IMG/VR virus record: IMGVR_UViG_3300025128_000163
Location: 1-34,885 of that record
DNA from: a virus
Direction: 5' to 3' (one strand)
Length of the DNA: 34,885 bases
Of the stretch, positions 5,919 through 25,200 are shown one piece after another. The notes under the pieces are model-generated. The model worked only from the letters and a program-made list of their open reading frames with translations, searched no databases and was not told where the DNA came from. Each line of letters opens with the position of its first letter. The stretch's first letter is position 1. Position numbers and translations under genes: made by a program.

Positions 5919-6107
5919 ATGAGTAAAGCGTTGAAACTATTTGTCCTCAAGGACAGTAGCGGAGCAGTCATCAAAGGTGATGGTGGTGAGCCGCTGTTCT
6001 TCAGCGACAAGATGAAAGCCAAAGACCATAAGTGGTTCTTGGGTAGGGAAGGTATTACCGTTTCGGTAGGACCAGATCACCATCGTTATCAAGGAGATGA
6101 CATATGA
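5919..6107 (+). CDS. Hypothetical small protein preceding the MoxR-like ATPase
   Basis: Encodes 62 residues from ATG 5919, which follows AAAGGA. An in-frame ATG at 5904 has no ribosome site. The sequence (LKLFVLKDSSGAVIKGDGGEPLFFSDKMKAKDHK) looks like a small beta-rich domain. Its stop overlaps the start of the ATPase gene by 4 nt (ATGA), so the two are translationally coupled. No family recognised. Confidence 0.75.
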   Translation: MSKALKLFVLKDSSGAVIKGDGGEPLFFSDKMKAKDHKWFLGREGITVSVGPDHHRYQGDDI

Positions 6108-7087
6108 GAGCAGAAGTAGTTGCACAGACCATCAAGGATCTGTGGTCACGCCGTCGTACTGTGTGTATTGAGGGCGCACCCGGTGGGGGTAAGACCAGTA
6201 TCGTACAACAAGTTGCAGAGGACTTGGGTATCGAATACATCCACCGTCACATGCCGACCATGTTGGTCGAGGACTTTGGTATACTGTTTCCGAAAGAGAA
6301 CAGTGACAAGCTGTCCTACAAACTACCCGACTGGTTCCCCTCTGACCCTGACTTTGAGGGTATCATCTGCTTCGATGACCGCAACCAGTGTAGCGGTGAC
6401 TTGCAGAAAGTTATGGCGAACATATGCCAGCAGCGTGAGTTGCATGGGCATCAAGTACCTGAGGGTGTGATGTTCGTATCGACTGGCAACCGTCAGTCTG
6501 ACAGGGCTGGATCGAACCGTGTGCTGTCTCAGCTTCGGGATCGTGAGACTGTCCTTGAGTTGGATACGTTGATCGATGACTGGACTAAGTGGGCTATCGA
6601 CAACAACGTGTCGCCTTCGGTCATCAGCTTTCTACGGTTCCGCCCTAACTTGTTGCATGACTTTGACCCGCAGCGTGATATTAGCCCGACACCCCGTAGC
6701 TGGGTTGAGGGTGTGAGTGATATCATTGGTGTTGTGTCACCGGAAGCGGAGTTCGATTGCTTCAAGGGTTCTGTCGGTGAGGGTGCAGCGGCAGAGTTTG
6801 TTGGGTTTATGAAGATCGAACGATCACTGCCTAACATCGACAACTTGTTGATGCACCCTGACAGAGGTGACGTACCAGAAGACCCTGCTACGTTGTATGC
6901 CATCAGTGGTGCTATCGCCAACAAGGCAACGGACGCTAACTTCGACAGGGTTATCACCTACGCTAACCGTATGCCACCTGAGTTTGGTGTACTCACTGTC
7001 AGCTATGCCACCCGCAAGGATGAGACACTTGCTTCAACGCAAGCGTTTACCAAGTGGGCAGTGGCGAATCAGGATGTCCTATTCTGA
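6104..7087 (+). CDS. MoxR-type AAA+ ATPase
   Basis: Encodes 327 residues. Walker A is GAPGGGKT (24-31). The Walker B strand is IICFDD (87-92), with Asp-Asp in place of the usual Asp-Glu. A sensor-1 Asn follows in VSTGNR (125-130). The ILFPK segment near residue 60 is typical of MoxR-like chaperone ATPases. Known MoxR proteins work with VWA-domain partners to insert metals or remodel complexes. A VWA/metallopeptidase-like gene lies 1.5 kb downstream in the same operon, matching that pairing. The replaced Walker B glutamate could slow hydrolysis. The family call is firm; the target is unknown. Confidence 0.88.
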   Translation: MRAEVVAQTIKDLWSRRRTVCIEGAPGGGKTSIVQQVAEDLGIEYIHRHMPTMLVEDFGILFPKENSDKLSYKLPDWFPSDPDFEGIICFDDRNQCSGDLQKVMANICQQRELHGHQVPEGVMFVSTGNRQSDRAGSNRVLSQLRDRETVLELDTLIDDWTKWAIDNNVSPSVISFLRFRPNLLHDFDPQRDISPTPRSWVEGVSDIIGVVSPEAEFDCFKGSVGEGAAAEFVGFMKIERSLPNIDNLLMHPDRGDVPEDPATLYAISGAIANKATDANFDRVITYANRMPPEFGVLTVSYATRKDETLASTQAFTKWAVANQDVLF

Positions 7088-7268
7088 TCTAGACGAGGCT
7101 ACAAGGGCGCAGCTTTACTATGCACTCAAGAATATTCTTGGGTACGGTAATGATGCGCTCCTTGATAGCTACTCTGCACTCAAGTTTGTGGAAGCCGTTG
7201 AGAAACGTGATTCAGAACTTGTTGCAGCAACACTGGCCAAGGTTCGGCTAGGTTTACAAACACATTAA
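7074..7268 (+). CDS. Hypothetical small protein overlapping the ATPase end
   Basis: Encodes 64 residues starting MSYSDLDEATRAQLYYALKN. The ATG lies 14 nt inside the 3' end of the ATPase gene, in another frame. The protein is helical and fairly acidic. Placement between the ATPase and its likely partner suggests a small accessory of that complex. No family recognised. Confidence 0.65.
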   Translation: MSYSDLDEATRAQLYYALKNILGYGNDALLDSYSALKFVEAVEKRDSELVAATLAKVRLGLQTH

Positions 7269-7282
7269 CGTGGAGATATATA

Positions 7283-8140
7283 ATGCATCTATCAGATAAA
7301 GCGTTACTCGTTCACCTTGGTGTATCCCAGTGGGTTGCCAAGAAACTTGACAAGCAAGCCAGTGAAGAAGTTGCTCGTGCCAATGGTGCGGTCAAAGATG
7401 CGGGACGGTACAACAAGTCGTTGCTGCCAACCTGCGACACGCTGGATCGTATTAAATCCAAGACCAGTGAGATACGTAAGAAGTTCTACAAGAACACGTT
7501 GCCGTGGGGTATTGAGGGTACGTTTATCCTACCCTCTGCTAACTACCTGTCGTTTATGACTGACTTCCGTAATGAGAAAGCGGAGTGGGAACGCCTGACC
7601 GAGGAGTTCTTTACGGACTACCATCAGTCAGTGTCGGATGCCCAGCGGTTACTGGGTAGTCTACATAACCCCGTCGAGTATCCTACGCTGGAGGAGTTGC
7701 GGCGTAAGTTCCGTATGGAGTTGAGTATACTGCCTGTCCCTACGGCTGGTGACTTTCGTGTTGAGCTTGCCGATGAGGAGTACAGCTCCATACAGTCAGA
7801 GATTGAGCAACGTGTTGCAGACAGTAGTAAGGCCGCGATGAGTGAGGTGTGGCAGCGTCTGTATGACAAGGTGGAGTGGCTTGCGGAGCGGTTATCCGAT
7901 CCCAAGAACGCCTTCCACGATGGCACATATCAGGATGCCAAGGACTTATGCGGTATGCTGACACGCCTTAACTTCACCGATGACCCTGACCTTGAGTCTA
8001 TGCGTCGAGAGGTGGAGCAGAAGTTGGTCAACCATCACCCCGATGCACTACGCAATGATCCTGACTTGCGTAATGATACATTCGATGAGGCCAAGGTCAT
8101 CATGGATAAGATGTCCGTATTCATGGAGGGCTTGGCATGA
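7283..8140 (+). CDS. Helical partner protein of the MoxR/VWA operon (DUF3150-like)
   Basis: Encodes 285 residues after GGAG. Largely alpha-helical, with repeated charged heptad-like stretches (for example about residues 165-215 and 235-280) and a central TLPWGIEGTFILPSANYL segment. Its place between a MoxR-type ATPase and a VWA protein, and the pattern of a T-P-W-G-G-P motif followed by long helices, recall the DUF3150-type proteins found in phage MoxR loci, but I cannot confirm the family. It is probably a structural or adaptor subunit. Its stop overlaps the next start by 4 nt. Confidence 0.7.
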   Translation: MHLSDKALLVHLGVSQWVAKKLDKQASEEVARANGAVKDAGRYNKSLLPTCDTLDRIKSKTSEIRKKFYKNTLPWGIEGTFILPSANYLSFMTDFRNEKAEWERLTEEFFTDYHQSVSDAQRLLGSLHNPVEYPTLEELRRKFRMELSILPVPTAGDFRVELADEEYSSIQSEIEQRVADSSKAAMSEVWQRLYDKVEWLAERLSDPKNAFHDGTYQDAKDLCGMLTRLNFTDDPDLESMRREVEQKLVNHHPDALRNDPDLRNDTFDEAKVIMDKMSVFMEGLA

Positions 8141-8424
8141 GGATAACTTTTTTAGTGAGGACGAGCGACAATAAGCTGCACCTTCTACAACATGAGACAC
8201 GCGATATTGATCGTCCAACGTGGCAATCAAATAGGAAGATCAATGTGGAGTTGGAGTGGGAGCGTTTCTTAACAGCGCGACCAGAAGTTATAGACCGTCT
8301 ACAACATGAGACACGCAATATTGATCCTCCAAGTCTAATAGGTGCATTAGACAGTAAGGTTAGGGGTCAGGTTGTCTGGTTTGAGGGGGTTGAAATTGAG
8401 CCACACAGGGAGAAAGAAGTATGA
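8137..8424 (+). CDS. Hypothetical protein with an internal duplication
   Basis: Encodes 95 residues, overlapping the previous stop by 4 nt (ATGA). LQHETRDID (17-25) recurs as LQHETRNID (55-63). The DNA of the two copies is nearly identical, which points to a recent duplication rather than ancient domain repeats. No family recognised. The base composition is somewhat richer in A+T than its neighbours. Confidence 0.65.
   Translation: MRITFLVRTSDNKLHLLQHETRDIDRPTWQSNRKINVELEWERFLTARPEVIDRLQHETRNIDPPSLIGALDSKVRGQVVWFEGVEIEPHREKEV
8184..8332 (+). repeat. 35-bp imperfect direct repeat inside a coding region
   Basis: Copies at 8184-8218 and 8298-8332 match at 33 of 35 positions. The 114-bp period is a multiple of three, so the frame is kept. 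Confidence 0.85.
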
Positions 8425-8627
8425 CAGAGAAGGAGTACGTTGCATTGCAACAAGCCTTTCCAGATGCAGACCGTGTTTGGAGAGATCGTATGTTTGATCT
8501 TCGCGCCTATCAATTACTTGATGAGTTAATCAAACACATGGAACCGAAGATGCTACACGGCATCCTCGCTAACATTCAGCGGGATGTAGATGAGTCCCGT
8601 GCAGAGGAAGGAGAAGCCAATGACTAG
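8421..8627 (+). CDS. Hypothetical small helical protein
   Basis: Encodes 68 residues, with a 4-nt overlap at its start and an 8-nt overlap with the VWA gene at its end. Predominantly helical and charged (RVWRDRMFDLRAYQLLDELIKHMEPKM), with an acidic C-terminus (DESRAEEGEAND). No family recognised. Its tight coupling to the VWA gene suggests they act together. Confidence 0.7.
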   Translation: MTEKEYVALQQAFPDADRVWRDRMFDLRAYQLLDELIKHMEPKMLHGILANIQRDVDESRAEEGEAND

Positions 8628-9798
8628 CATTATGCCAGCACCTGACTACACCGACCGCGAACCAATGAACGATACACAGTTGGCAGCGGTGAAGATGCGC
8701 CTATCAAAGGCCAAGACCTCGTTGATCTTGGAACACCCATTCGTGGGTAGTGTGGCTATGAATATGCCGTTCTTATTTGATAGCTCCATACCTACGGCGG
8801 CAACGAATGGTAAGCGTGTGTTGTTCAACCCATGGTTCTGCAACGAGTTGACAGACGAGGAGCTAAAGTTTCTCGTAGCGCATGAGTGCCTTCATCCTAT
8901 GCTGGAGCATAACTTTCGGCGGGGTGAGCGTGATGCTCGTAAGTGGAACCAAGCCGCTGACTATGTTATCAACAAGCTGTTGACTGACGATGGTATCGGT
9001 AAGATGCCTGAGTGTGGGCTACTGTCGGACGCTATCTACGATGAGGGTGGCGGCATCAGCGATGGTATCTACAACATCTTACCAGACGAACCCAACGGTG
9101 GTAATGGTGGCAGTGGATACACTGGCTCTGGCCTTGATGAGTGTGAGGATGGCGAGGGTACTCCAGCGGAGCAGCAGCAACAAGCTGCCGAGTGGAAGGT
9201 CAAGGTCGCTCAAGCTGCACAAGCTGCCAAGATGTGCGGTAAGTTATCTGCCAACATGGAGCGGCTGGTCGATGAGGTACTCAACCCCAAGGTAGACTGG
9301 CGTGAGGTACTTCAACGGTTCGTCACCAAGTGTAAGGATGACACCCGTACTTGGGCTAGACCTAATCGTAGGTTCATAGCACAGGGTTTGTATGTCCCCT
9401 CTGTCAGTGGGGAAGCCCTTGGAGAACTTGTTGTAGCGATTGATTGCTCTGGCTCCATTGGAGTGGAGGAACTCAATCAGTTTGCATCAGAGGTTGTCAC
9501 TATCCATGAGGATCACAAGCCAGCCAAGATTCACGTGGTGTATTTCGACAGTGAGGTATCTCACCATGATGAGTATACCAAGGATGATACAGTCGAGATC
9601 GTCGGACATGGGGGTGGCGGGACAGCGTTCTCACCCATCTTTGAGTTTGTTGCAGAGAAGAACATTGAGCCGATAGCGTGTGTCGTACTCACTGATCTGT
9701 ATTGTTCCGACTTTGGTGACGAGCCTGAGTATCCTACCCTATGGGTTACTAACGGTGCGACGGAAGCTGAGTTTGGTGAAGTGGTGGAGATGGTATGA
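8620..9798 (+). CDS. Metallopeptidase-like plus VWA-like protein (DUF2201 type)
   Basis: Encodes 392 residues. ATG 8620 follows GGAAGGAG; an upstream in-frame ATG at 8590 lies within the previous gene. The N-terminal domain has the zinc-site motif HECLH (88-92) in FLVAHECLHPMLEH, as in the DUF2201 N-terminal metallopeptidase-like family. A Gly/Glu/Gln-rich linker (about 140-195) follows. The C-terminal domain has VVAIDCSGSIG with a MIDAS-like D275-x-S277-x-S279, as in DUF2201 VWA-like domains. VWA proteins of this sort commonly pair with MoxR ATPases, and one lies upstream. Together they may form a chaperone or protease acting on a host or virion target. The domain calls are firm; the role is inferred. 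Confidence 0.88.
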   Translation: MTSIMPAPDYTDREPMNDTQLAAVKMRLSKAKTSLILEHPFVGSVAMNMPFLFDSSIPTAATNGKRVLFNPWFCNELTDEELKFLVAHECLHPMLEHNFRRGERDARKWNQAADYVINKLLTDDGIGKMPECGLLSDAIYDEGGGISDGIYNILPDEPNGGNGGSGYTGSGLDECEDGEGTPAEQQQQAAEWKVKVAQAAQAAKMCGKLSANMERLVDEVLNPKVDWREVLQRFVTKCKDDTRTWARPNRRFIAQGLYVPSVSGEALGELVVAIDCSGSIGVEELNQFASEVVTIHEDHKPAKIHVVYFDSEVSHHDEYTKDDTVEIVGHGGGGTAFSPIFEFVAEKNIEPIACVVLTDLYCSDFGDEPEYPTLWVTNGATEAEFGEVVEMV

Positions 9799-10004: not shown

Positions 10005-10682
10005 ATGGCTACAGTTAGATTTTCGGACGAACTTCGTAGTGATATACGGCGCAATGCAGAGCGTCTATTCCGCAGTCGTGAAGAAGCAGCAGAAGCGGTA
10101 GGTGCTGATGAGTGGCCCCGGATAGTGGCCGATCACTACGTACTTGCTGTTAACAACTTGTTGGGTAACGTACCGCAGGTAATCCGCGAGAAGTTTCTCA
10201 CCTACGGTAAGACATTTAGGCTAGATAGGTTTGAGACTAGGGTTGACACTACTCGTGTGGATCACAGTGTTGATGTGGCTATCCCTATGCCCAATGTGAA
10301 CAGTGATGATGTAGCACGACAGCTAGGGTTTATATCCTACGAGCGCACTTATGGTGACACTCTTGCTGTGAGACTGGATGGGACTGATCCCAAGTGGGCA
10401 GACCTGTACACCAAGGCAGTAAAGCGTAAAGATGATATCGACGCTCTTGCAGCAGAGAAGGCTACCTTCGTGCAGAATGTACAACGGATCACCGATAGCT
10501 ACTCTACCCTTGCGCCTGCACTCAAAGCATGGCCCCCCTTATGGGATCTTGTTCCAGAGCATAAGCAACGGAAACACAAAGAGATAGTAGAGCGGAAACG
10601 TACTGCTGTGGAAGATGTTGTGGACGGTATGAACCTAGATCAGATGACGGCTACAACAGTCGCATCCAAACTTCGTAGGTAA
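10005..10682 (+). CDS. Phage protein, possibly Nmad5-like
   Basis: Encodes 225 residues after AGAGGAG. It begins with a charged helix (FSDELRSDIRRNAERLFRSREEAAEAV). Near residues 145-185 it has IDALAAEKATFVQNV and LKAWPPLWDLVPEH. That order of helical N-terminus, long helix and AWP-x-VPE segment recalls the family named nucleotide modification associated domain 5 (Nmad5), found in many phages, whose function is not experimentally settled. The match is from memory and not certain. No catalytic motif is evident. Confidence 0.6.
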   Translation: MATVRFSDELRSDIRRNAERLFRSREEAAEAVGADEWPRIVADHYVLAVNNLLGNVPQVIREKFLTYGKTFRLDRFETRVDTTRVDHSVDVAIPMPNVNSDDVARQLGFISYERTYGDTLAVRLDGTDPKWADLYTKAVKRKDDIDALAAEKATFVQNVQRITDSYSTLAPALKAWPPLWDLVPEHKQRKHKEIVERKRTAVEDVVDGMNLDQMTATTVASKLRR

Positions 10683-10694
10683 GGAGAAAGCACA

Positions 10695-11564
10695 ATGCGA
10701 ATGGACCCAATCGAATCATACGAGGATGCGGCAGCGTTCTTCAGTACTTGCCGTGACTCTTATAAGGGTAAACCTTTACCCGCAAACTGGAGGTTACACA
10801 AAGATGACAGCGGATTGCGCCCTGTCTACTGGATAGACACAAGTAGGTTCGGAGCCTCACAGCGTCTATGTAGCATCCACCCCGATAACACGGTTCAATT
10901 CCACTACTCAGTGGATCGACTAGTGAGGGCTAGCAATACCATTGTCATGGTTCTTCACAAGGTATTCCCTATAGCTTGTACTCGTAAGCGACAGGGCATT
11001 TATGAGGTGGGGCCAGTATGTTGGAACCAATACGACCACTGGAACCAATACTCATGGCCGACATTGGATAAAGACTTTGCGTGTGAGTACTTCCAAGGTC
11101 TGACGTTTGACCTAAGGAGTCGGCGGATTACTAATCCACAGCCTGATCTTGCTGATCGCGCTATCCCCGATGTGCGTAAGGCATGGCGCAAAGACTTGAC
11201 ACGGTTCAAGCGTGGCCTCAAGGCGAGGGCCAAGGTCGGTGCATTAACTGGGTACATTGACGAGATCAGAAGTGCAGATCGCACATGGTCTTTCTGGAAC
11301 TCAGAACTCAGGACCGATGATGACAGCAAAGCACTCACGAACATCGAACTGACAGATGCTCAGGAATATGTTCTAAAATGTATGCGTAACGATAGCTACC
11401 CTCCTGATCTACTCCGCGCCTTCGTACGGTGGGCAGGGAAGCACAACGTCTACAGTCGCCACAAGCTGGACGATAAGTCAGTCCTCAAGTATGTGGATCA
11501 GATGTTCAACAAGCACAGTCTCGATTTCCGCAAAGCCTACGGTGTATTCAAGGAGGTTGACTGA
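10695..11564 (+). CDS. Hypothetical protein, 289 residues
   Basis: ATG 10695 follows AAGGAG at a normal distance. The protein is rich in Trp, Tyr and charged residues. The N-terminal half looks globular and beta-rich, with GPVCWNQYDHWNQYSW (about residues 107-122). The second half is helical (DVRKAWRKDLTRFKRGLKARA). No conserved catalytic set that I can name. The next gene starts in a TGATG overlap, so the two are coupled. Confidence 0.75.
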   Translation: MRMDPIESYEDAAAFFSTCRDSYKGKPLPANWRLHKDDSGLRPVYWIDTSRFGASQRLCSIHPDNTVQFHYSVDRLVRASNTIVMVLHKVFPIACTRKRQGIYEVGPVCWNQYDHWNQYSWPTLDKDFACEYFQGLTFDLRSRRITNPQPDLADRAIPDVRKAWRKDLTRFKRGLKARAKVGALTGYIDEIRSADRTWSFWNSELRTDDDSKALTNIELTDAQEYVLKCMRNDSYPPDLLRAFVRWAGKHNVYSRHKLDDKSVLKYVDQMFNKHSLDFRKAYGVFKEVD

Positions 11565-12060: not shown

Positions 12061-12504
12061 ATGACAGTAATAGTTTGGGATGGCAGTACTCTTGCCACGG
12101 ATACTGCCGCTAACGATGGTAACTCACAGTGGTATTCCCCTAAGGCTTGGTATCATGTTGTAGAGGAAGGTCCGGTTATCCTTGCTGGTGCTGGACCTTT
12201 ACACTCTATCCTCGCAATGCGAGAGTGGTTCTTGGATGGTCGTAAACGTGATGCGTTTCCCGTCATTCAGACTACCCACCCCTGCCACTTTATCGTGGTG
12301 AATCAGGGTGGGCTATACAGATACGAAGACCACCCCCTCCCAATAGAACACGGGCGTAATCAATGCGCGTTTGGTGAAGGCAAAGACTTTGCCTACGGTG
12401 CATTAGCGATGGGCGCAACCTCGCAACAATCTGTAACAATCGCCAATCAATTCTCTACCCATTGTGGCATGAGCGTTGAAGTGTTCGAGATCCCCCCACA
12501 ATGA
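12061..12504 (+). CDS. Proteasome/HslV-like Ntn-hydrolase
   Basis: Encodes 147 residues. Starting MTVIVWDGSTLATDTAA, it exposes Thr2 as a new N-terminus after Met removal. It has ATD (12-14) and Lys28 at places that match the Thr1, Asp17 and Lys33 of HslV and proteasome beta subunits. GALAMGATSQQSVTIANQFSTHCG near the end is also typical of phage proteins annotated as proteasome-like. It is shorter than HslV (about 175 residues). No HslU-like ATPase is adjacent; the MoxR-type ATPase at 6104 is the nearest AAA+ protein. It may be a self-compartmenting peptidase acting on host or phage proteins. Confidence 0.75.
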   Translation: MTVIVWDGSTLATDTAANDGNSQWYSPKAWYHVVEEGPVILAGAGPLHSILAMREWFLDGRKRDAFPVIQTTHPCHFIVVNQGGLYRYEDHPLPIEHGRNQCAFGEGKDFAYGALAMGATSQQSVTIANQFSTHCGMSVEVFEIPPQ

Positions 12505-12821
12505 CTAAAGCTGTGAAACATGATGCAGAGAAACCTCCGTATGATCTGCTTGCTCCCGAATACCTAGAGGCTACGTCTGAGGTATTAGGTTTCGGTGCGA
12601 AGAAGTATGGCTCCCGTAACTGGGAGTTAGGTATGGCATGGAGCCGCCCTTTTGCTGCGATGATGCGGCATATGTGGGCATGGTGGAGCGGAGAGAAACA
12701 TGATCCAGAAACAGGCATGAGCCACTTACACCATGCGTCATGCTGTCTGATGTTCCTGATCGCTTATGAACAACGCAAGATAGGAGAGGATGACCGTCCC
12801 AATGGACATCGTAACGATTGA
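12501..12821 (+). CDS. dATP/dGTP diphosphohydrolase-like protein (DUF5664)
   Basis: Encodes 106 residues, with a 4-nt overlap with the Ntn-hydrolase gene. KPPYDLLAP (11-19), FGAKKYGSRNWELG (31-44), HMWAWWSGEKHDPETG (57-72) and HLHHASCCLMFLIAYE (75-90) follow the pattern of the phage family once called DUF5664, now described as a dATP/dGTP diphosphohydrolase domain related to MazG-type enzymes. Such enzymes change the dNTP pool to favour phage DNA synthesis, and in 2-aminoadenine phages one of them (MazZ) feeds the dZTP pathway. The DNA polymerase gene follows with a 32-nt overlap. No PurZ or DatZ is visible here, so a modified-base role is only a possibility. Confidence 0.8.
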   Translation: MTKAVKHDAEKPPYDLLAPEYLEATSEVLGFGAKKYGSRNWELGMAWSRPFAAMMRHMWAWWSGEKHDPETGMSHLHHASCCLMFLIAYEQRKIGEDDRPNGHRND

Positions 12822-14664
12822 TTTTGAAACTTATTACTCTAAGGAGTATTCCCTTTCCAAACTTACCACTGAGGAATACGTCAGGTCAGATGACTTTGAG
12901 GTGATAGGTGTGGGTGTTAAGGTGAACGATAACCCTGCCGACTGGTATTCCGGTAATGATGTACGCACGTTCCTAAACTCGTTGGACTACAGTGATAAAG
13001 CTATTCTCTGCCACAACACTGTATTCGATGGAGCCATTCTGTCTTGGCATTATGGTATCAAGCCTAAGTTCTGGTTCGATACCATGTCGATGGCGCGGCC
13101 CAATCACAATGTGACGGTAGGTGGTAGCCTCAAAAACCTAGCCTTGTACTTCAAGTTAGGCGAGAAGGGTACGGAGGTTCTGGATGCGTTAGGTAAGAGG
13201 CGTAAAGACTTTACCCCCACAGAACTACACAAGTACGGGAGCTACTGCGTTAATGATATCGAACTAACGTACAAGCTGTTCCGTAAACTTAAGAAAGATT
13301 TTCCTGTTAGTGAATTGCTGGTGATCGACCAGACTATCCGTATGTATACGGAGCCTGTCATAGAATTGGATAGGTTCAAGTTATGCGACCACCTAGAAGC
13401 TGAGCAAGAGAGAAAGCAAAAGCTCCTCAACAAGTTGGGGAACGGTGATCCAGAGGCGGCGCGTGCGGTGCTGTCAAGTAATCCTAAGTTCGCTGCATTG
13501 CTGGAGAACCTAGGCGCGGTAGTACCAATGAAGGTTAGCCCTCGCACTGGTAAGGATACGTATGCTTTTGCCAAAACAGATCCCGGCCTACTTCAGTTAT
13601 TAGAGCATGATAACCCTGCAATTCGTGCTGTAACTGAAGCTAGGCTGGGCACCAAGTCAACGATCGAGGAGACACGTACACAACGTCTGATAGATGTTTC
13701 CAAACGTGGGCCTCTGCCGATCCTCCTGAATTACTACGGCGCACACACTGGCCGGTTCTCTGGCGGCGACAAACTTAACTTGCAGAACCTACCATCACGC
13801 AAAGGTAATGTGATCCGCACTTCTCTCTGCGCTCCTGAGGGTAGTAAGTTGATCGCATGTGATAGCAGTCAGATCGAAGCTCGTATGCTTGCGTATGTTG
13901 CTGGGCAACATGATCTGGTGAAGTCATTCCGAGAAGGCCGCGATGTGTATCGTGAGTTCGCGGCTACAGTCTACGGCGTGGGTATTGATGAGGTCACCAA
14001 GGAGCAGAGGTTTGTAGGTAAGACCTGTATCCTTGGCCTTGGGTACGGTATGGGACACGTAAAGTTTCGGGACACACTCAAGCTGAGTCAGATGGAGATT
14101 GATGAGGCCGAAGCGAAACGGATCGTCAGTCTATATCGGTCTAGGTATCCCTCTATTACACGGCTATGGGATACAGCAGGATCGGCACTCAAATCCATGA
14201 GCATAGGACAGAGCGGTACGATAGCGGGGATGTTACCTTTCGGACCCGATGGAATAAAGCTACCAAGTGGATTGTTTATACGCTATAATCATCTACGAGC
14301 TACACAGGATGGGTTTGAGTATATCAATGATGCTCGTACCCACCGCAAACTTATCGCCTGTAGGGTTGCGAACACCCCTACGGATGAGCTTCCGTGGACT
14401 AAGATATACGGTGGTAAGGTAGTGGAGAACATAATACAGGCGTTAGCCCGTATAGTTATTACAGAGCAGATGACCGAGATTGGTCAACGGCATAAGGTAG
14501 TATTTCAAGTGCATGATGAGATCATCGTCACGACCGGTACTGAATCAGCAAAGGCTGTGCAACAAGATATGGAGCGTGTGATGTCGTGTGCTCCGAGCTG
14601 GGCGACGAACTTACCAGTAGCTTGCGAGAGTGATATAGGTGACAACTATGGAGACTGTAAGTGA
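12790..14664 (+). CDS. Family A DNA polymerase with 3'-5' exonuclease
   Basis: Encodes 624 residues; the true start may be ATG 12802 (MDIVTIDFE). The exonuclease domain has DFE (D11, E13), HNTVFD (D80) and Y152-x3-D156. The polymerase domain has GRFSGGDKLNLQNLPSR (321-337), motif A (ACDSSQIEARM, D358), motif B (R407, K411, Y419-G420) and motif C (VHDE, 574-577). There is no 5'-3' exonuclease domain, as is usual for phage enzymes. The residue matching E. coli Phe762 is Leu (L415), a variant well known in virioplankton polymerases. It is the replicative polymerase, working with the primase-helicase, SNF2-type helicase and SSB-like protein encoded downstream. Confidence 0.96.
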   Translation: MTVPMDIVTIDFETYYSKEYSLSKLTTEEYVRSDDFEVIGVGVKVNDNPADWYSGNDVRTFLNSLDYSDKAILCHNTVFDGAILSWHYGIKPKFWFDTMSMARPNHNVTVGGSLKNLALYFKLGEKGTEVLDALGKRRKDFTPTELHKYGSYCVNDIELTYKLFRKLKKDFPVSELLVIDQTIRMYTEPVIELDRFKLCDHLEAEQERKQKLLNKLGNGDPEAARAVLSSNPKFAALLENLGAVVPMKVSPRTGKDTYAFAKTDPGLLQLLEHDNPAIRAVTEARLGTKSTIEETRTQRLIDVSKRGPLPILLNYYGAHTGRFSGGDKLNLQNLPSRKGNVIRTSLCAPEGSKLIACDSSQIEARMLAYVAGQHDLVKSFREGRDVYREFAATVYGVGIDEVTKEQRFVGKTCILGLGYGMGHVKFRDTLKLSQMEIDEAEAKRIVSLYRSRYPSITRLWDTAGSALKSMSIGQSGTIAGMLPFGPDGIKLPSGLFIRYNHLRATQDGFEYINDARTHRKLIACRVANTPTDELPWTKIYGGKVVENIIQALARIVITEQMTEIGQRHKVVFQVHDEIIVTTGTESAKAVQQDMERVMSCAPSWATNLPVACESDIGDNYGDCK

Positions 14665-15314
14665 CCAAGCTATCGCACTCCTACTCTGCCATTAAGATGT
14701 ACGACAACTGCCCGAAGCGGTATAATATGCAACGGGTCACCAAGGAAGTTAAGGATATACAAGGCGAAGCCAGCCTGTATGGTGAACGAGTACACAAACA
14801 ATTAGAAGACCGACTCAACGGTACACAACTCCTCCCCCCTGAGAGTGTAAAGTATGAAGCACTCGTCGAAGCGTTCTCCACTATGGATGGAGAACTTCTT
14901 GTAGAACAAGAGCTAACGCTTAATGCTAGCTTAGAGCCTACGGGCTGGTGGTCCGACGATGCGTGGCTACGATCTAAGCTGGATGTTCTCATCCTCAATG
15001 GTGAGGATGCTCTGGTAGCAGACTGGAAGACAGGAAAGCGAAGACCTGATTTCTTTCAGCTAGAACTATTTGCGCTACAGACATTCAAGCACCACCCCCA
15101 AATCCAACGTGTTAAGTCCGTGTTCGTCTGGCTTAAAGATATGCAGATGGATCACGAAGTCTATACGAGAGATGACTTACCCTCGCTGTGGGATAAGTTA
15201 CTAAGTAAGATTACGCTTATCGAAAAGTCGCTTGAGCATAACAACTGGCCCGCCAAGCCCAGCGGGCTATGCCCATGGTGTCCCGCAAAAAATGTATGTG
15301 AGTTTGCTAATTAA
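14661..15314 (+). CDS. Cas4/RecB-like PD-(D/E)XK nuclease with Fe-S cysteines
   Basis: Encodes 217 residues, overlapping the polymerase stop by 4 nt. It has the RecB-family opening SYSAIKMYDNCPKRY, GERVH (41-45, motif with H45), the core RSKLDVLI (D108) and VADWKTG (D121, K123), and a later FFQLELFALQ (131-140). Cys17 and C-terminal Cys204, Cys207 and Cys213 (CPWCPAKNVC) form the four-cysteine iron-sulfur signature of Cas4 and AddB-like nucleases. There is no CRISPR array in the window, so a role in phage recombination or end processing is more likely than spacer acquisition. Confidence 0.9.
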   Translation: MTKLSHSYSAIKMYDNCPKRYNMQRVTKEVKDIQGEASLYGERVHKQLEDRLNGTQLLPPESVKYEALVEAFSTMDGELLVEQELTLNASLEPTGWWSDDAWLRSKLDVLILNGEDALVADWKTGKRRPDFFQLELFALQTFKHHPQIQRVKSVFVWLKDMQMDHEVYTRDDLPSLWDKLLSKITLIEKSLEHNNWPAKPSGLCPWCPAKNVCEFAN

Positions 15315-15344
15315 CTTGACACTAGTGTAAAGTAGGAGTAACTA

Positions 15345-15653
15345 ATGGGCACGACCCCAGAAGGTAAAGTAAAGAAGAAACTTGATACTATGCTGAAGAG
15401 TAAACGTGACGTTTGGTACTTCCCCCCGCAAGCTGGGCCGTTCGGTAGGTCTGGTGTCCCTGACAGGATTGCGTGTGTTGCTGGTCAACTAATCGGGATC
15501 GAAGCCAAAGCTGACCGGACAAAGAAACCAACGGCGATGCAACAGCAGTGCATGGATAAGATCGAAGCTGCTGGTGGTAAGTGCTTTCTAGTATACGACG
15601 AAGCAACCATCCAAGAAGTAGAGGATTATATTGATGCAATTCGTATGGGTTGA
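15345..15653 (+). CDS. VRR-NUC domain nuclease
   Basis: Encodes 102 residues after GTAGGAG. The compact VRR-NUC fold is shown by SGVPDRIACVAGQLIGIEAKAD, with catalytic D40, E53 and K55 (the PD...ExK pattern), then TAMQQQCMDKIEAAGGKCFLVYD. Such stand-alone nucleases sit beside SNF2-type helicases in many phages, as here (helicase at 15828), and are thought to cut branched or structured DNA during replication or repair. Length is typical for the stand-alone phage form. Confidence 0.92.
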   Translation: MGTTPEGKVKKKLDTMLKSKRDVWYFPPQAGPFGRSGVPDRIACVAGQLIGIEAKADRTKKPTAMQQQCMDKIEAAGGKCFLVYDEATIQEVEDYIDAIRMG

Positions 15654-15828
15654 TGTGTTTTCTATAACTAAGTGCGAGGGAGGGTGGTTCCTTTCAGCAC
15701 TCAGTTTCGGACTCAATGATTGGTCAGGACACCTATTACGGTTGTCCTACGACAATGGTGATTGGGAAGTGGATATCTGTTATCTGCCGCGATGGCATAG
15801 TGCATCCGGGTTTAGGGAGCCGCACTAA
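15634..15828 (+). CDS. Hypothetical small protein between nuclease and helicase
   Basis: Encodes 64 residues from ATG 15634, overlapping the VRR-NUC gene by 20 nt; a TTG one codon earlier is also possible. It is aromatic and rich in Trp (MQFVWVDVFSITKCEGGWFLSALSFGLNDWSGHLL) and looks like a beta-rich domain. It ends in a TAATG overlap with the helicase, so it is translated with it. No family recognised. Confidence 0.6.
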   Translation: MQFVWVDVFSITKCEGGWFLSALSFGLNDWSGHLLRLSYDNGDWEVDICYLPRWHSASGFREPH

Positions 15829-17378
15829 TGCTTGTTGTTGAACAGGCGCAGACTATTGCGCTGAAACTTAACAATCCACAACGTGTTCTGGAGTGCCTAC
15901 CCACTGCGAAGTATGTAAACTTGCGCGGTGTCGATGTGGTACTTACCCCCCACAAACCTGATGAGGTACGTGTCCTGCGTAACCTTGGGATCAAAGCTCC
16001 CGCTCCTATCCTCCACTATTACGACTGGTCTGGTAGCTATAAGCCGTATGACCACCAACGTCAGACATCCGCTTTCCTTACCATGAATAAACGTGCGCTG
16101 GTTCTGAATGAGATAGGTACTGGTAAGACGCAAAGTGCGCTATGGGCAGCAGATTATCTTATGAAGCAAGGGATCATAAAGAAGTGCCTGATCGTATCTC
16201 CTCTCTCCACACTGGAACGTGTATGGGGTGACGCTATATTCAAAGAGTTTACGCATCGCAAATCAGTCACGTTGTATGGCACTGCAAAGCGTCGGCGCAG
16301 GTTATTGAAACAAGATGTAGACTTCTACATCGTGAACCATGACGGATTCGGTGTCATATCCAACGATATACATGACATGTTCGACCTCATTATCGTAGAT
16401 GAGGCAGCGGTCCTACGTAACCCATCGACTAACCGCTTTCGATTATTCCGTAAGTGGCTGGAGCTACACCCCGACATCCGCTTGTGGATGATGACAGGTA
16501 CGCCAACGCCTAACGAGCCTACTGATGCGTGGGCCTTGGCTAAGTTAGCATCAAGTCCACATGTGCCCGAGCGGTTCACTACGTTCCGCAATCAAGTTAT
16601 GCAGAAGTTTGGGCAGTACAGTTGGGTACCTAAGCCGGGAGCGCTTGAGATAGTGACACAAGTTCTACAACCTGCGGTACGGTATACACGCGATGAGTGC
16701 TTTGATCTACCTGACACGGTGTTTCAGACCCGACAAGTGGAGTTATCCAAGGAGCAGCGTGATCATTACGATAGGATGTTCAAGCACTTTATCACGGACG
16801 TTGCGAATGGTGAGCAGATCAGCGCAGCCAATGAAGCGGTTAAAGTACAGAAACTTGTTCAGATAAGTTGTGGTGTGGCGTACGACGACAACGGTGAGGA
16901 TGTAGAACTAAACTGCAAACCGCGAGTGAACACACTTTGCGAGATCATCGATGAGGTAGGGGGTAAGGTCATCGTCTTCACCCCGCTTACCGGTACTTTA
17001 CATATGCTGGAGCGTGAGCTGTCTAAGCGTTGGTCGGTTGGTGTGGTTAATGGTGCGGTAAGTTCCAACAAACGCAACCAAATATTCCATGGGTTCCAAG
17101 AGGAATCAAACCCGAAGATACTACTTGCCCACCCCGCTACCATGGCACACGGCCTGACGCTAACAGCGGCTTCCACCATCGTGTGGTACGGACCGATCAC
17201 TAGCAATGAGCAGTATGTACAAGCGAACGGTCGGATAGAGCGTATCGGTAAGAGGCACACAGCTAACGTGGTGCATATTGAAGGCACCAAGTTAGAGCAT
17301 CGTATGTACAAACGCCTAGAAACCAAACAGAAACTACAAGGGATACTGCTGGACCTGATCCAGCAGGAAATGGAGTAG
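15828..17378 (+). CDS. SNF2-type DEAD/DEAH-like helicase (superfamily 2)
   Basis: Encodes 516 residues. The Q-like segment YDHQRQTSAF precedes motif I EIGTGKT (95-101). Later come SPLSTLERVW (motif Ia), DEAA (191-194, motif II), TGTP (223-226, motif III), then in the second RecA domain KVIVFTPLTGT, HGLTLTAAS and motif VI QANGRIERIGK (465-475). All the parts needed for an ATP-driven translocase are present. In phages of this kind the SNF2-like protein accompanies a family A polymerase with Leu at the 762 position and a VRR-NUC nuclease. Role in replication or fork repair is inferred. Confidence 0.92.
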   Translation: MLVVEQAQTIALKLNNPQRVLECLPTAKYVNLRGVDVVLTPHKPDEVRVLRNLGIKAPAPILHYYDWSGSYKPYDHQRQTSAFLTMNKRALVLNEIGTGKTQSALWAADYLMKQGIIKKCLIVSPLSTLERVWGDAIFKEFTHRKSVTLYGTAKRRRRLLKQDVDFYIVNHDGFGVISNDIHDMFDLIIVDEAAVLRNPSTNRFRLFRKWLELHPDIRLWMMTGTPTPNEPTDAWALAKLASSPHVPERFTTFRNQVMQKFGQYSWVPKPGALEIVTQVLQPAVRYTRDECFDLPDTVFQTRQVELSKEQRDHYDRMFKHFITDVANGEQISAANEAVKVQKLVQISCGVAYDDNGEDVELNCKPRVNTLCEIIDEVGGKVIVFTPLTGTLHMLERELSKRWSVGVVNGAVSSNKRNQIFHGFQEESNPKILLAHPATMAHGLTLTAASTIVWYGPITSNEQYVQANGRIERIGKRHTANVVHIEGTKLEHRMYKRLETKQKLQGILLDLIQQEME

Positions 17379-17380
17379 AT

Positions 17381-17785
17381 ATGTCTAACGAACTAACCGT
17401 CGATCAGGTGATAGCAACCTACCTAAAAATGCGTAAGAACAAAGAGGCGATAGAGGCCGACACTAAAGAGCGGGTGAAAGCTATAAAAGAAAAGATGGCT
17501 AAACTAGAGATGTGGATTCAGACCAAGTCTGATGAGACAGGTGTTAAGTCATTTAAGACTGATGAAGGCACAGCCTTTATGACAACCAGTGATTACGCCA
17601 GTGTGGCAGACTGGGACTCTGTTCTAGAATTTGTTCGGCAGAATGAAGCGTGGGACATGCTGACGAGGGGTGTCAACAAGACAGCTATCCGAGGCTACAT
17701 CGATGAGACTCAGGCTATACCCCCCGGCGTAAACTTTGGCACCAAGGTTGGTGTCAGCGTTCGTTCACCAAGTAAGAGGGCATGA
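17381..17785 (+). CDS. Coiled-coil phage protein next to the helicase
   Basis: Encodes 134 residues after GGAG. Residues 13-55 form a charged probable coiled coil (KMRKNKEAIEADTKERVKAIKEKM). The second half has KSFKTDEGTAFMTTSDYASVADWDSVLEFV and then VNKTAIRGYIDETQAIPPGVNFGT, a form I recall from conserved phage proteins without a named function. The order helical N-terminus then small globular domain resembles Gam-type DNA-end-binding proteins in outline, but I see no firm match. It lies between the helicase and SSB-like genes, which points to DNA metabolism. Confidence 0.75.
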   Translation: MSNELTVDQVIATYLKMRKNKEAIEADTKERVKAIKEKMAKLEMWIQTKSDETGVKSFKTDEGTAFMTTSDYASVADWDSVLEFVRQNEAWDMLTRGVNKTAIRGYIDETQAIPPGVNFGTKVGVSVRSPSKRA

Positions 17786-18015
17786 TGAATATAGATGATG
17801 AAGGACGCCGTAAAGGCGCACAGACTCTCCGCCTTAGGCGCGAGGCTACACCTGATGTTGGGTATAGCAGTCGAAGGGGGAATGAGGAATTTACAAGACG
17901 CATCGGTGATCGGCGGTTTGACGATAAGCCTACTAAGACCACTGAACCCGATACTCCGGAACAGCTAGAGCTGTTCGGACCAGAAGTTGACCTAGGTAAT
18001 AAGGAGAACACCTAA
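17782..18015 (+). CDS. Small charged, probably disordered protein
   Basis: Encodes 77 residues; the ATG overlaps the previous stop by 4 nt (ATGATG, so either Met may be used). It is rich in Arg, Asp, Glu and Gly (GRRKGAQTLRLRREATPDVG, RRIGDRRFDDKPTK) with little hydrophobic content, and ends EQLELFGPEVDLGNKENT. QLELFGP has the form of a QLxLF-type beta-clamp-binding motif. No family recognised. Confidence 0.65.
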   Translation: MMNIDDEGRRKGAQTLRLRREATPDVGYSSRRGNEEFTRRIGDRRFDDKPTKTTEPDTPEQLELFGPEVDLGNKENT

Positions 18016-18016
18016 C

Positions 18017-19027
18017 ATGACTAGCTTAATACCCACGAACATTGAAGTCCCTGCCCACTTAGCAGGGCGTGTAGGACAGCCTTCGGCACTTGCCGAATCT
18101 CTCGGCGGCGGTCTTGGGACCGGAGGTGAGACTTTCCCTCGCATCTCTATCAAGGCGTCCCGCTTTCGTATTGTGGATGGTGGAGCGGAGACTGTACTGG
18201 ATGACAACACACTAGAAGTTGTTGTCGTAGGTGCGAACCCTCGCCTCTCGAAGGCTTGGTACGCAGACAAGTGGACCCAAGATGCGGAGCCGAAGGCACC
18301 GGACTGTTCATCTCTTGACGGGGTATCACCAAGTTTAGAGAGTGAGAGTCCTCAGAACGATCTCTGTGCGACCTGTCCGAAGAACGCTTGGGGTAGCCGC
18401 GTTACAGATACTGGCACCAAAGTGAAGGCGTGTTCGGATAAGAAACGCTTGGCGATTGTTGCAGCTACAGATCCCAATGGTCCGGTGTACCTACTTGAGG
18501 TGACCGCAGCAGCACTTAAAGGTCTGAACGCATACCAGCGGGAGCTATCTATGCGCGGGATTGCACCGGAGATTGTGAAGACTGCTATCTCTTTCGATAC
18601 GGGTGCATCATTCCCCAAGCTACAGTTTAAGTTTGGCGGGTTTATTGATGAAGCAACTCAAGGAACTGTGGATGGTCTGTTCGGATCAAATCGGGTGAAG
18701 CAGATCACGGGTGAGGTCTCGGCAAATATTCAGATCGCAGCACCCGCACCTGCCCCAGCACCTGCCCCAGCACCTGCCCCAGCACCTGCTCCTACGCCCG
18801 TAGCGGCACCCGCACCAGTTGCAGAAGTTGTAGAACCAGTTGCAGAACCTGCGGCACCTACTGCTAGCGCTAGTTTCGGTAAACCTGCGGCACCTGCACC
18901 CGAACCAGTAGCGGCACCCGCACCCGTGGCAGAAGAACCAGCACCCGCACCCGTGGCAGACGCTGGAAGTGCTGCGCTTGCCGACGAGATAAGTGCGTTA
19001 ATGGCAGAGGTGGCAGACGATGACTAA
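18017..19027 (+). CDS. Putative ssDNA-binding protein with Cys cluster and acidic tail
   Basis: Encodes 336 residues after AAGGAG. The core (about 40-235) holds four cysteines: C97 (PDCSSLDG), C117 and C120 (CATCPKNAWGSR) and C139 (KACSDKKRLA), a probable zinc site. Residues 241-315 are a Pro/Ala linker (repeats of AP). The C-terminus is acidic (DEISALMAEVADDD). An acidic tail on a flexible linker is the usual mark of phage SSBs, used to contact polymerase and helicase. The place in the replication operon supports this. It is not an OB-fold SSB that I can recognise by sequence, so the call is functional inference. Confidence 0.7.
   Translation: MTSLIPTNIEVPAHLAGRVGQPSALAESLGGGLGTGGETFPRISIKASRFRIVDGGAETVLDDNTLEVVVVGANPRLSKAWYADKWTQDAEPKAPDCSSLDGVSPSLESESPQNDLCATCPKNAWGSRVTDTGTKVKACSDKKRLAIVAATDPNGPVYLLEVTAAALKGLNAYQRELSMRGIAPEIVKTAISFDTGASFPKLQFKFGGFIDEATQGTVDGLFGSNRVKQITGEVSANIQIAAPAPAPAPAPAPAPAPAPTPVAAPAPVAEVVEPVAEPAAPTASASFGKPAAPAPEPVAAPAPVAEEPAPAPVADAGSAALADEISALMAEVADDD
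18746..18793 (+). repeat. 12-bp tandem repeat in the SSB-like linker
   Basis: GCACCTGCCCCA occurs three times in perfect tandem (18746-18781), with a fourth diverged copy (18782-18793). It encodes Ala-Pro repeats. Such units readily gain or lose copies by slippage while keeping the frame. Confidence 0.85.
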
Positions 19028-19304
19028 ATCCACATTGGACTTTGCACAAGTCGAGGCGCTGCGGGCACACATGTTACTGACCACAGCGCAAATGGCACAG
19101 CTCATGGGGGTATCAAGGGTGACATACTCCGGATGGGTAAACGGGAAACCAATACGTAGTAGTAATGATGCTAAGGCGCGAGTCGCGCTCCGTAGATTAT
19201 TCAAGGTATTGGAAGGGCAAGAATGGCCGAAACCAGAGGTTATAGCCATGCCATCCAAACAGAGGTTCGACCTACTCCTTGAGTTTATAGAACCATCTGA
19301 GTAA
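19020..19304 (+). CDS. HTH DNA-binding protein, Xre-like
   Basis: Encodes 94 residues, overlapping the SSB-like gene by 8 nt. Residues 19-45 (LLTTAQMAQLMGVSRVTYSGWVNGKPI) are a classic helix-turn-helix: a helix, a tight turn at GVS and a recognition helix (RVTYSGWVNG). The rest is helical, with an RRLFKVLEGQEW segment. It is the only recognisable sequence-specific DNA-binding protein in the window. It could control the divergent promoters near 2.9-3.1 kb or the AT-rich region, but no binding data can be seen here. Confidence 0.8.
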   Translation: MTKSTLDFAQVEALRAHMLLTTAQMAQLMGVSRVTYSGWVNGKPIRSSNDAKARVALRRLFKVLEGQEWPKPEVIAMPSKQRFDLLLEFIEPSE

Positions 19305-19314
19305 TATGATGGCG

Positions 19315-19336
19315 GGGGAGCGGTTCGCCGCTCCCC
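19315..19336 (+). other. TTCG-loop hairpin before the primase-helicase
   Basis: GGGGAGCGG, TTCG loop, CCGCTCCCC: 9 perfect pairs between the HTH gene and the primase-helicase gene, followed by TTAA and no T-run. The closing pair is G-C rather than the C-G of the other TTCG loops. Attenuator, weak terminator or processing site. Confidence 0.7.
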
Positions 19337-19361
19337 TTAACTACCAAAGCAGGGATCTGAT

Positions 19362-22211: not shown

Positions 22212-25200
22212 TCCAGCCCGTAGGCTTTAGCCAGAGATGCTGACAACGGTTTGACTGCCTTGGGTAGTGCCCGTAATGATCTCTGGCTTGCAGTGAGGTC
22301 GGCCTCTTTAGCGGACTTACGTGCGCCTTGTACAAAGTTTTTAAGTCCAAATGGTGTGCCTCTGTAGTCTCGTTGCAAGCGGCGCACATCTCGTAGTATG
22401 GCGCGGCGTCCTTCGGCATCAGCTTTTACATACGCATGACGTAATGATGCGGCTAATTCCTTAGAGTAGTCTGACACTTGCTGGCCCATGCGTACTACAT
22501 CATATTCAAGAGAGGCTTTACGCGGGTAGAAGCCCGTCATTCTGGCGATGGAGTGGAGGAAGTGGGCATCACGCGCAACTACCTGCCCTCGCTTGTTGAT
22601 AATGTCACCGCTTGTCATGTATACGATGCCATCAGTGAACGCTTTAACAAACGCAATACCGAAACCTTCACGACCAATGTCGGCTAAAGTCGTCGTGTCA
22701 TCCCGCAAGCCCACAGTTTCTGCAAGATATTTTGTAGCTAATGACGCTGTGGTTCCCGCGGCAACAATGAACGACGCAGGTGCACCGAGGATACTCTCGA
22801 ACTCTTTACCTATATTTGACCCTGCTTTGAACATACCAGTGCCGGGGATCAGATCGCCGTGGCCGATCCTAGAAGATACTGTCAGACCCGTAGCAGCATC
22901 GATGATTCCGCGTAAGAGGATTGCAGACGATCCGGGTATAATAGAATCGGCAAGCTGTGCAAGTTCGGCCTCGGCACCATCCCAACGTATACCAAATTTC
23001 TGTGCGAGGGTATCGATCAAGTCTAGAAGATCGTCGCCAAATGGAAGTCCCTTCAGTCCCGCCGCCAAGAATAATGTCGCTAGAAACACACGCCGTTCCT
23101 TAGGTGCTAGGTTCCGCATAAGCTGCACACTAATCACGATGAACTGCTTATACATATAGGTGTACTGTAGGAAGTTCCCCCGCGCCCATGAAGGACGGTT
23201 GTATTGGGAGTAGTTACCCTGTGAGGTATTCACTGCTAGGGTGGCTCTCTCATATAACGAATCTTGGTTTACACCGCCACCTTGGGCTTGCATCCGTTTC
23301 TTCTCTAGCCTGTAAGATGCAAGGGCCGTAACTCGACGGTTGTATTGCTCAGTCTTAGAGAACAACGCCATCCAAGTCTCCATGCCCTTACCAACCAAGC
23401 CGCGTCGGCCAGTACGAGAGAGGTCTAGAAGCGCGTTATGTAGGTTGGGAGTAAGCACTCCCTTTGCGGTTAGGTCACGTAAGAACTTTAGCTCGTCCAG
23501 ATCAACGCCGTAGCGGTCTAGAACCCTTGGGTCTTTTTCAGCTTGCGCAATAAGTTTGTCCATGGCAGCGGAGGTACCAAAGACATCCTGCTTAAACCCA
23601 TCTCGCAGTAGGCTAAGATGTGACCCTGCTCTATGGATCTCATACGTTGACGCACCTAGTCCGTGACCACCGCCATACCCCGTCTTTTCATTGTAGGTCG
23701 ATAGGTATGGGATTGCGTGCGTATAGAGAGAAGTCATGTTGATGATTGCGGGTGCAAGCACACCACCAAGTTGCGCTGCTGCGGTCGCACCTACGACTGG
23801 CCGGAAAGCTTTACCGATCTTACCCTCGCCGGACGCATCCACCAGATTGCGTGTGTCACGGTAGTAAGTAACGAGGTTTGTCGCCTGATCGCGGTAACGA
23901 TTACCTTTGCCTTTACCAGCAATGACCGTGGTATTGAGGGGATTGCCCGGTATGGGTGCGATAACTTTAACGTCACGACCAGAAGACTCCACCATCATAC
24001 GCTGATACTGATCCATTGCCTTACGGGCGTCGAAGATTAGTGCCTCGTTGTTACTGGCAACGGCTACGCGATAGCTATCCTGAAGTCTACGAAGTTTCTC
24101 AAAGTCGCCACCCCAGTTAGTGTCATCACTAAGTATCTCGGCAATCTCGTGCTGGAACCTGTTCTTACCTGCAATGTGCGAACCTGTCTCGATGTGTTCT
24201 GCAATAGATCGCATCATGTCCGTATCGAAACCGGGGTTCCCTTGGCGCATAAGGTTACGTCGGGCAACGCTGTGGTGGGAAGATGTTAACCTAACCAACC
24301 TGCGGCGATCTTCGGCAGAGAGATTGACTCCAGCACGCATCAGGGTGTTACTTAGATCATCGTAGTTTATGGTCCCACCCAATGGCGGCACACTCGAAGC
24401 CTCTTCAAACACAGCCTCTAACCTGCTTACTGCAACTAGTCCGTCAGCATCGATGTTCCCGCGTGCTCCCGGTTCGTTGGTTAGCATACGAGTGCCCGGC
24501 TTAATCTCTCCAAGGATGCTGTTTATATCGTCGCGCATAGACTTTGCATCTGTCTCACTGTCTGTACGCATGTACGTCAGCATACCGCGCAGGCTATCAT
24601 CAAGGCGAACAGGATTACCGTCCATGTCATAGGCAGTGACGCGAACTTGGAATCGTCCACGACGGCGTAGAGGAGCATAAGCTCCCATAATAGTTTGTTT
24701 GGCTCGTAACTCAGCGTTTGTGACCTGCGCATCCAACAACACAGTATCCATCAAACTACGAGTAAGGACTTTAAGTTGCCGCTCCGACAGTTTGTTTTTG
24801 GTTAGAGCGCTAACTTGTTTGATTAGAGCACGACCTTGCTCACTGGTCTGTAGCTCCTCAATTCCTACGCGATCTTGTTCTGCCACATCCTCAATGTTGC
24901 TAAACAGATCCTCCATCTTCCGCGTGCCGTATTGATCATGCATGACACGAATGAGTTGATAAATTGCTGCGTAGCCTTTACCGGTCTCACTCCTATCAGC
25001 GGGTGAGTACCCGGCATATAGCTCACCAATATTACGTATAATATTTTCTGACTCCCCATCCAATTTGAAAGTCTTAGATAATTTATCGTAGTGGCGATTG
25101 CGTGTATTGATTAGCCCCTGCACCTTATCCACGTAGACATCAACTGCATTTTGATCCACAACATTGCGCATCTCGTTGTAGGCTTTCCAAACACGGTCGC

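Follow-up and report, generated by a model that had tools for sequence, protein, structure and literature searches.

What does a phage do with an AAA+ ATPase that it encodes next to a protein combining a metallopeptidase-like site with a VWA domain? The question is raised by a virus record of 34,885 bases (IMG/VR record IMGVR_UViG_3300025128_000163, referred to at its whole length as the window), in which a tightly packed operon at positions 6104-9798 of the plus strand encodes an AAA+ ATPase, a 64-residue open reading frame (ORF), a 285-residue protein, ORFs of 95 and 68 residues, and a metallopeptidase-VWA protein. While the pairing of such an ATPase with a metallopeptidase-VWA protein is already known in phages, two things are new here, namely the presence of a divergent DUF3150 homologue, as profile comparison identifies the 285-residue protein, as a fixed third gene, and the occurrence of the same trio on plasmids. 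These genes make up a real, core and mobile three-gene AAA+ system, and its distribution changes the likely function: the trio probably serves mobile DNA as a general machine for remodelling proteins rather than being a part of the virion. We give a probability of about 0.42 to the fuller reading, that the product of the operon is an AAA+ machine of three parts in which a ring, a docking VWA domain and a DUF3150 subunit together bring about the cutting of an intracellular target.

The genes concerned, in window coordinates, are as follows.

6104..7087, plus strand: predicted MoxR/midasin-class AAA+ ATPase, 327 amino acids, with Walker A at 24-31, Walker B at D91-D92, N129, R147 and R198 (from phrog_1297, PF07728, the Midasin match and motifs)
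7074..7268, plus strand: small ORF, 64 amino acids, a variable, non-core insert (homologues in 4 loci only; gap of ~42 nucleotides in relatives)
7283..8140, plus strand: DUF3150-like protein, 285 amino acids, mostly helical with short strands, the core third gene (profile-profile match; 114/114 loci)
8137..8424, plus strand: small ORF, 95 amino acids, with an internal twofold repeat, a variable insert (no clustered relatives; 2 loci including the window)
8421..8627, plus strand: small ORF, 68 amino acids, in a minority of relatives (13 loci; cluster of 10 unique sequences)
8620..9798, plus strand: predicted DUF2201 protein, 392 amino acids, with an N-terminal zincin-like metallopeptidase domain and a C-terminal VWA domain (PF13203, PF09967, phrog_1314, motifs, predicted structure)
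10005..10682, plus strand: d2, 225 amino acids, fast-evolving, follows the trio in this phage group (kept order; 31% median identity)
10695..11564, plus strand: d3, 289 amino acids, follows d2 in this phage group (kept order; 27% median identity)

A preliminary description of this DNA had the genes coupled by overlaps in a single operon, which holds at every junction but one: neighbouring frames overlap by 4 nucleotides (upstream ORF and ATPase), 14 (ATPase and 64-residue ORF), 4 (285-residue gene and 95-residue ORF), 4 (95- and 68-residue ORFs), 8 (68-residue ORF and VWA gene) and 4 (VWA gene and the next gene), and a 14-nucleotide gap just before the 285-residue gene is the sole place within the operon where they do not.

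Domains and active sites of the three proteins

The ATPase carries the Walker A motif GAPGGGKT at residues 24-31 and an Asp-Asp Walker B, as first described. It matches phrog_1297 (ATPase) at 5.7e-67 and passes PF07728, the AAA_5 family (25.0 bits, cut-off 22), but fails PF07726, the AAA_3 family of MoxR proper (13.2 bits, cut-off 27), and its best sequence match in the PDB is Midasin. Judged by these matches it is a member of the MoxR/midasin (dynein-related) class of AAA+ proteins, the name MoxR being used throughout in a broad sense that asks for AAA_5 and not for AAA_3. Of 48 non-redundant relatives in this phage clade, 47 keep the Walker B pair D91-D92, and the residues that are invariant among the relatives (G27, G29, K30, D91, N129, R147 and R198) include the sensor-1 Asn and the arginines.

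The ORF call for the VWA gene begins at 8590, but the ATG at 8620, which gives 392 residues, is the likelier start because it lies directly behind AGGAAGGAG; residue numbers given below for this protein count from the 8590 start. Both a metallopeptidase-like domain (PF13203; 161.1 bits against a cut-off of 23.2, 5.6e-47) and a VWA domain (PF09967; 89.6 bits against 26.4, 2.2e-25) are found well above their cut-offs, and the protein matches phrog_1314 at 1.1e-106, making it, as far as domain content can say, clearly a DUF2201 protein. The union of an HExxH site and a VWA-like metal ion-dependent adhesion site (MIDAS) in one polypeptide, which had been read from the letters of the window, is borne out at the level of single residues: H98, E99, H102, H107 and D124 (the last in WNxAxD) are identical in all 60 non-redundant relatives, as is the complete MIDAS (D285, S287, S289, T345 and D369). 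The predicted structure, with a predicted local distance difference test score (pLDDT) of 79, resembles VWA domains including the MIDAS domain of midasin.

Proteins of the DUF2201 family are labelled ‘HNH endonuclease’ in PHROG 1314 and in many phage records (NC_008720 gp25 and NC_041878 gp217 among them). An HNH identity can be set aside for the protein of the window, in which Pfam finds no HNH domain and the metallopeptidase and VWA domains span residues 36-401; Pfam likewise finds no HNH domain in N4 gp25. The propagated label appears to be wrong and to hide the gene.

Two alternative readings turn on the peptidase domain itself. Most of the studied MoxR-VWA pairs (NorQD, CbbQO, RavA-ViaA) remodel enzymes without proteolysis, and the metallopeptidase domain could accordingly be a non-cutting, metal-binding adaptor of a cofactor-insertion or maturation chaperone. 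A structural metal site would not need the HExxH glutamate, however, and this residue is invariant in the 60 relatives and in all outgroups checked; we take its invariance as an argument for a genuinely active peptidase, and regard the chaperone reading as improbable. The second alternative is a more specific form of our preferred one, in which a minigluzincin-like protease and an AAA+ ATPase strip or cut proteins stuck on the DNA of the element during replication. It draws on the N-terminal part of the predicted structure, which resembles selecase MJ1213, a minimal metallopeptidase (4qhi; Foldseek probability 0.96-0.99, template modelling score by target 0.41-0.44), and to which a weak sequence match also aligns, HExxH on HExxH; Wss1, whose working partner is Cdc48, and Spartan share this class of fold (PMC4559962). 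Replication-type neighbours in several phages agree with such a role, as does the fact that plasmids and phages both replicate DNA. The fold resemblance is nevertheless distant, no DNA-binding domain was seen in the protein and no link to DNA damage emerged, and we hold clearance of protein-DNA complexes to be an improbable answer too.

The 285-residue protein was initially described as a helical partner of the ATPase; its place in the set stands but its being all-helical does not, since in the model, which is of moderate confidence (pLDDT 77, predicted template modelling score 0.48), short strands appear at the N-terminal end and around residue 150. It scores below the gathering threshold of PF11348, the DUF3150 family (15.0 against 24.9 bits), and 20 of the 52 members of its own family match PF11348 at E < 0.1. 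Compared with plasmid DUF3150 proteins, one of which carries the DUF3150 annotation, this family aligns over its full length (hhalign probability 100, E 4.8e-69, 283 columns), and because of that profile match, despite the sub-cut-off Pfam score, we assign the protein to DUF3150. A joint profile built from the family and the plasmid proteins finds the protein of the bacterial locus L244, which passes PF11348 with 47 bits, at 5.6e-27. The predicted fold has no PDB match at E 0.001 and matches only other viral DUF3150-like models; domain searches of the protein found no NTPase or effector domain, and the literature searched held no mention of DUF3150.

Gene order in phages, plasmids and bacterial contigs

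Relatives on viral contigs were recruited with each of the three proteins. The order ATPase, 285-residue gene, VWA gene, d2, d3 is kept among them, and core members are absent only at contig ends. All 114 viral loci with room on both sides have the ATPase gene upstream and the VWA gene downstream, and the DUF3150-like gene is present in every one of the 137 ATPase loci with 2.5 kb of downstream sequence, counts in which the loci are not all independent contigs and which correspond to some 50-60 distinct proteins at 90% identity. The association of these genes is therefore not due to chance, and the survey upholds the view of a co-inherited set. Across loci that extend as far as the DNA polymerase gene, median identity to the window is 66% for the ATPase, 56% for the DUF3150-like protein and 63% for the VWA protein, as compared with 61% for the DNA polymerase, 31% for d2 and 27% for d3, although the values are somewhat inflated by recruitment of the loci with ATPase and DUF3150, which tells to that extent against our reading. 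By this measure the trio behaves like core genes, with a degree of conservation close to that of the phage DNA polymerase. The Synechococcus phage (cyanophage) MinM2 has the same trio in the same order, annotated as MoxR, DUF3150 and VWA-like, and the aquatic phages that bear the trio are a widespread group.

The three small ORFs between the core genes had been suggested as dedicated accessories, an idea that fails in the relatives. Homologues of the 64-residue ORF occur in only 4 loci, the window included, those of the 95-residue ORF in two, again including the window and with no clustered relatives, and those of the 68-residue ORF in 13 (with a cluster of 10 unique sequences). The median gaps estimated in the relatives, ~42 nucleotides from the ATPase to the 285-residue gene and 13 from there to the VWA gene, are too short to hold such genes. 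As the small ORFs are not conserved between the core genes, they are not dedicated accessories. The 95-residue ORF (8137-8424, plus strand) contains an imperfect internal repeat, LQHETRDIDRPTW / LQHETRNIDPPSL.

The ATPase and VWA genes also lie close together, with no DUF3150 gene, in N4, phiFa (a Thermus phage), PA5oct, D500 (a Vibrio phage) and CBB, and on pSYSA (Synechocystis 6803) and pTHEOS01 (Thermus). Across the whole records of N4, phiFa, PA5oct, D500, CBB and the Pseudomonas phage Rollin, a search run with no positive control gave no DUF3150 match even at E 1; with the family profile, MinM2 and the plasmids come up at E < 1e-90. In a quick ATPase tree, a single branch, itself unsupported, separates the ATPases of trios from those of pairs, and the trio ATPases form a group with 95% support once the sequence of locus L180 is left out; the VWA tree needs three changes. 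A one-time assembly of the trio is favoured, though short of proof.

With the DUF3150 protein of MinM2 as query, 42 plasmids were found, and the six examined (from Rhodovastum, Simplicispira, Cupriavidus (two), Paraburkholderia and Burkholderia) all carry ATPase, DUF3150 and VWA genes in that order. The three are direct neighbours except in Simplicispira, where there is a 3.6-kb interval with several small genes. On the Paraburkholderia and Burkholderia plasmids (L177 and L178) VirB-type conjugation genes follow a short way downstream of the trio. The search for recurrent extra partner genes in the flanks of the plasmid trios was dominated by shadow ORFs in GC-rich DNA. A scan of bacterial genome contigs, made with the plasmid-type alignment and so biased towards Burkholderiales, gave 77 loci, 55 of them with the trio in the same order.

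At 19 distant DUF3150 loci, mainly from Planctomycetota and Desulfobacterota, neither a MoxR-class ATPase nor a VWA gene turned up. What stands upstream instead is a classical AAA ATPase (PF00004), on the same strand and within ~4 kb, in all 15 of these loci that have upstream DNA (six were used to build the profile of this ATPase and nine were found by it). Four DUF3150 proteins from the distant loci were compared with PF11348, of which two pass (47 and 41 bits) and two have no match. Some of the loci (among L236-L253 and L255) hold ThiF-like, Cas4-like or UvrD-like ORFs, judged by eye, and these neighbours suggest mobile elements. Because DUF3150 is associated with two kinds of AAA+ ATPase, its gene neighbourhoods mark it as a recurrent AAA+ partner, and its likeliest role is to partner the ATPase or to select the target. 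We propose, tentatively and at rather less than even odds, that mobile elements have in DUF3150 a family of AAA+ partner subunits not recognised before, which serves ATP-driven proteases or remodellers of two ATPase types whose target is common to phages and plasmids.

What the proposed machine may act on

In the mechanism that we prefer, the ATPase would form a ring, the DUF2201 protein would dock on it through its VWA domain, and the MIDAS metal site would, by analogy with NorQ-NorD, hold an acidic surface of the target. Hydrolysis of ATP would then pull or strain the target, and the metallopeptidase domain, being in the same polypeptide as the VWA domain, would cut the part thus exposed, while DUF3150 as third subunit would couple the ATPase to the complex or select the target. 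The target would be an intracellular protein met by lytic phages and plasmids alike, such as a host factor or some complex assembled on the DNA of these elements, rather than a virion protein.

The main alternative is a virion-assembly chaperone, in which the ATPase-VWA pair, peptidase domain included, would serve the folding, assembly or maturation of structural proteins of the phage particle. This has been proposed explicitly for jumbo phages (PMC7824862), and several facts fit it: p618 of the Acidianus two-tailed virus (ATV) is a virion component with p892 as its VWA partner, the PA5oct ATPase is noted as seen by electrospray ionisation tandem mass spectrometry (ESI-MS/MS), structural genes of RPP1 adjoin its gp24/gp25 homologues, and the pair of CBB lies among virion genes. 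Plasmids, however, make no virions, and they carry the same trio (pSYSA and pTHEOS01 the pair). In several phages, moreover, the neighbours of the pair are genes for replication or other non-structural functions, N4 gp24 and gp25 are middle genes (PMC4193335), their homologues are missing from the list of 13 virion proteins for RPP1/RLP1, and in the window the operon is far from a probably structural block on the minus strand. Since plasmids, which lack virions, carry the set and since gp24 and gp25 are middle genes with homologues off the virion list, the target is likelier to be intracellular than to be part of the particle; we consider the assembly chaperone unlikely. The preliminary description had left the role as unknown, and it can now be narrowed, a purely virion-assembly role being unlikely given the trio on plasmids.

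A defence or counter-defence module would also explain occurrence on phages and plasmids, and MoxR-vWA ternary systems are predicted conflict systems of multicellular bacteria (PMC7159879). The core status of these genes, in all N4-like phages of PMC4193335 and in all sampled relatives, would be out of character for anti-defence genes, whose distribution is as a rule patchy, and neither a convincing match among the PADLOC defence families nor an effector domain was found, so that we think this very improbable.

Several observations weigh against the mechanism preferred here, that of an ATP-driven machine cutting an intracellular target. Outgroups with a parsed Walker B mostly have Asp-Glu, and the Asp-Asp of this phage clade could lower hydrolysis; the ‘ESI-MS/MS’ note in the PA5oct ATPase record leaves that protein possibly virion-associated. 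The pair-only N4, phiFa, PA5oct, CBB and pSYSA lack DUF3150, which is thus not essential to every such machine, and since the trio of Burkholderiales plasmids can adjoin genes of a conjugation type IV secretion system, targets could differ by type of element. Finally, we infer complex formation, ATPase activity, ATP-driven cutting and the intracellular target from indirect evidence.

Downstream (3') of the trio lie d2, d3, an HslV-like peptidase, a dATP/dGTP diphosphohydrolase, DNA polymerase, exonuclease, helicase and primase/helicase. The HslV-family-like peptidase (12061-12504, plus strand; phrog_1040, 2.8e-20), ~2.3 kb beyond the ATPase/VWA operon and present in ~40 related loci, has no match in Pfam or NCBIfam; it is possibly a second proteolytic partner for an AAA+ ATPase. 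The DNA polymerase and primase/helicase region (12790-22211, plus strand) is akin to Rhizobium phages RHph_TM and to Rollin, which has no DUF3150 in its record and no ATPase or VWA match within the 43 kb fetched. A minus-strand block holds a giant protein of ~2620 residues (2621; 22208-30076, minus strand) with no Pfam match and no PDB homologue, whose C-terminal stretch resembles phage proteins that bear the label either of a DarB-like antirestriction protein or of an internal virion polymerase. A link between the trio and this protein, taken as a virion polymerase that has to be unfolded, gained no backing beyond that C-terminal resemblance.

Comparison with known systems

A two-gene counterpart is N4 gp24-gp25 (core genes of the Schitoviridae), which like the window has an adjacent AAA+ ATPase and PF13203+PF09967 protein in the same order; it differs in that a DUF3150 gene is found neither between the two nor elsewhere in the record and in that gp24 has an Asp-Glu Walker B. 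These two genes are among 14 core genes of the N4-like phages examined, without known function (Chan et al., PMC4193335), which places the pair among the few genes common to all of them. The MoxR and metallopeptidase-vWA pair described in jumbo phages, with virion assembly as its proposed role (Iyer et al. 2021, PMC7824862), has the same two-protein architecture, and CBB and PA5oct are large phages with the pair; a third protein was not described there. A viral MoxR-VWA pair is likewise found in ATV, where p618 and p892 act in tail development and their interaction has been shown (PMC4124505), but this is an archaeal virus, no peptidase domain is reported and p618 is in the virion.

Other systems offer further comparisons. 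The hexameric MoxR ring of NorQ-NorD has as its plug the VWA domain, whose MIDAS binds an acidic patch of the target while ATP hydrolysis remodels it (PMC9976466). NorQ-NorD, CbbQ-CbbO and RavA-ViaA all have a MoxR-class ring ATPase with a VWA partner, and NorD the MIDAS-based target binding, but they lack the DUF2201 metallopeptidase domain and DUF3150, and their targets are metabolic enzymes. Selecase MJ1213 and the minigluzincins (Wss1, Spartan) share the fold class of the predicted peptidase domain, with HExxH aligned, and are without a VWA domain. In the MoxR-vWA ternary conflict systems the third component is VMAP, iSTAND or FtsH-type with effectors, whereas that of the window is DUF3150-like.

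The plasmid sets of Burkholderiales and Acetobacteraceae (e.g. Cupriavidus basilensis pRK1-1) match the window in having the same three genes in the same order, a full-length DUF3150 homologue and a VWA protein ~35% identical; they differ in being plasmid-borne and not from a lytic phage, and d2 and d3 were not seen in them. The ATPase/metallopeptidase-VWA pair gains DUF3150 as a named partner, and the finding that plasmids too carry the set, its constant third member included, shifts the question from virion assembly to an intracellular need of phages and plasmids.

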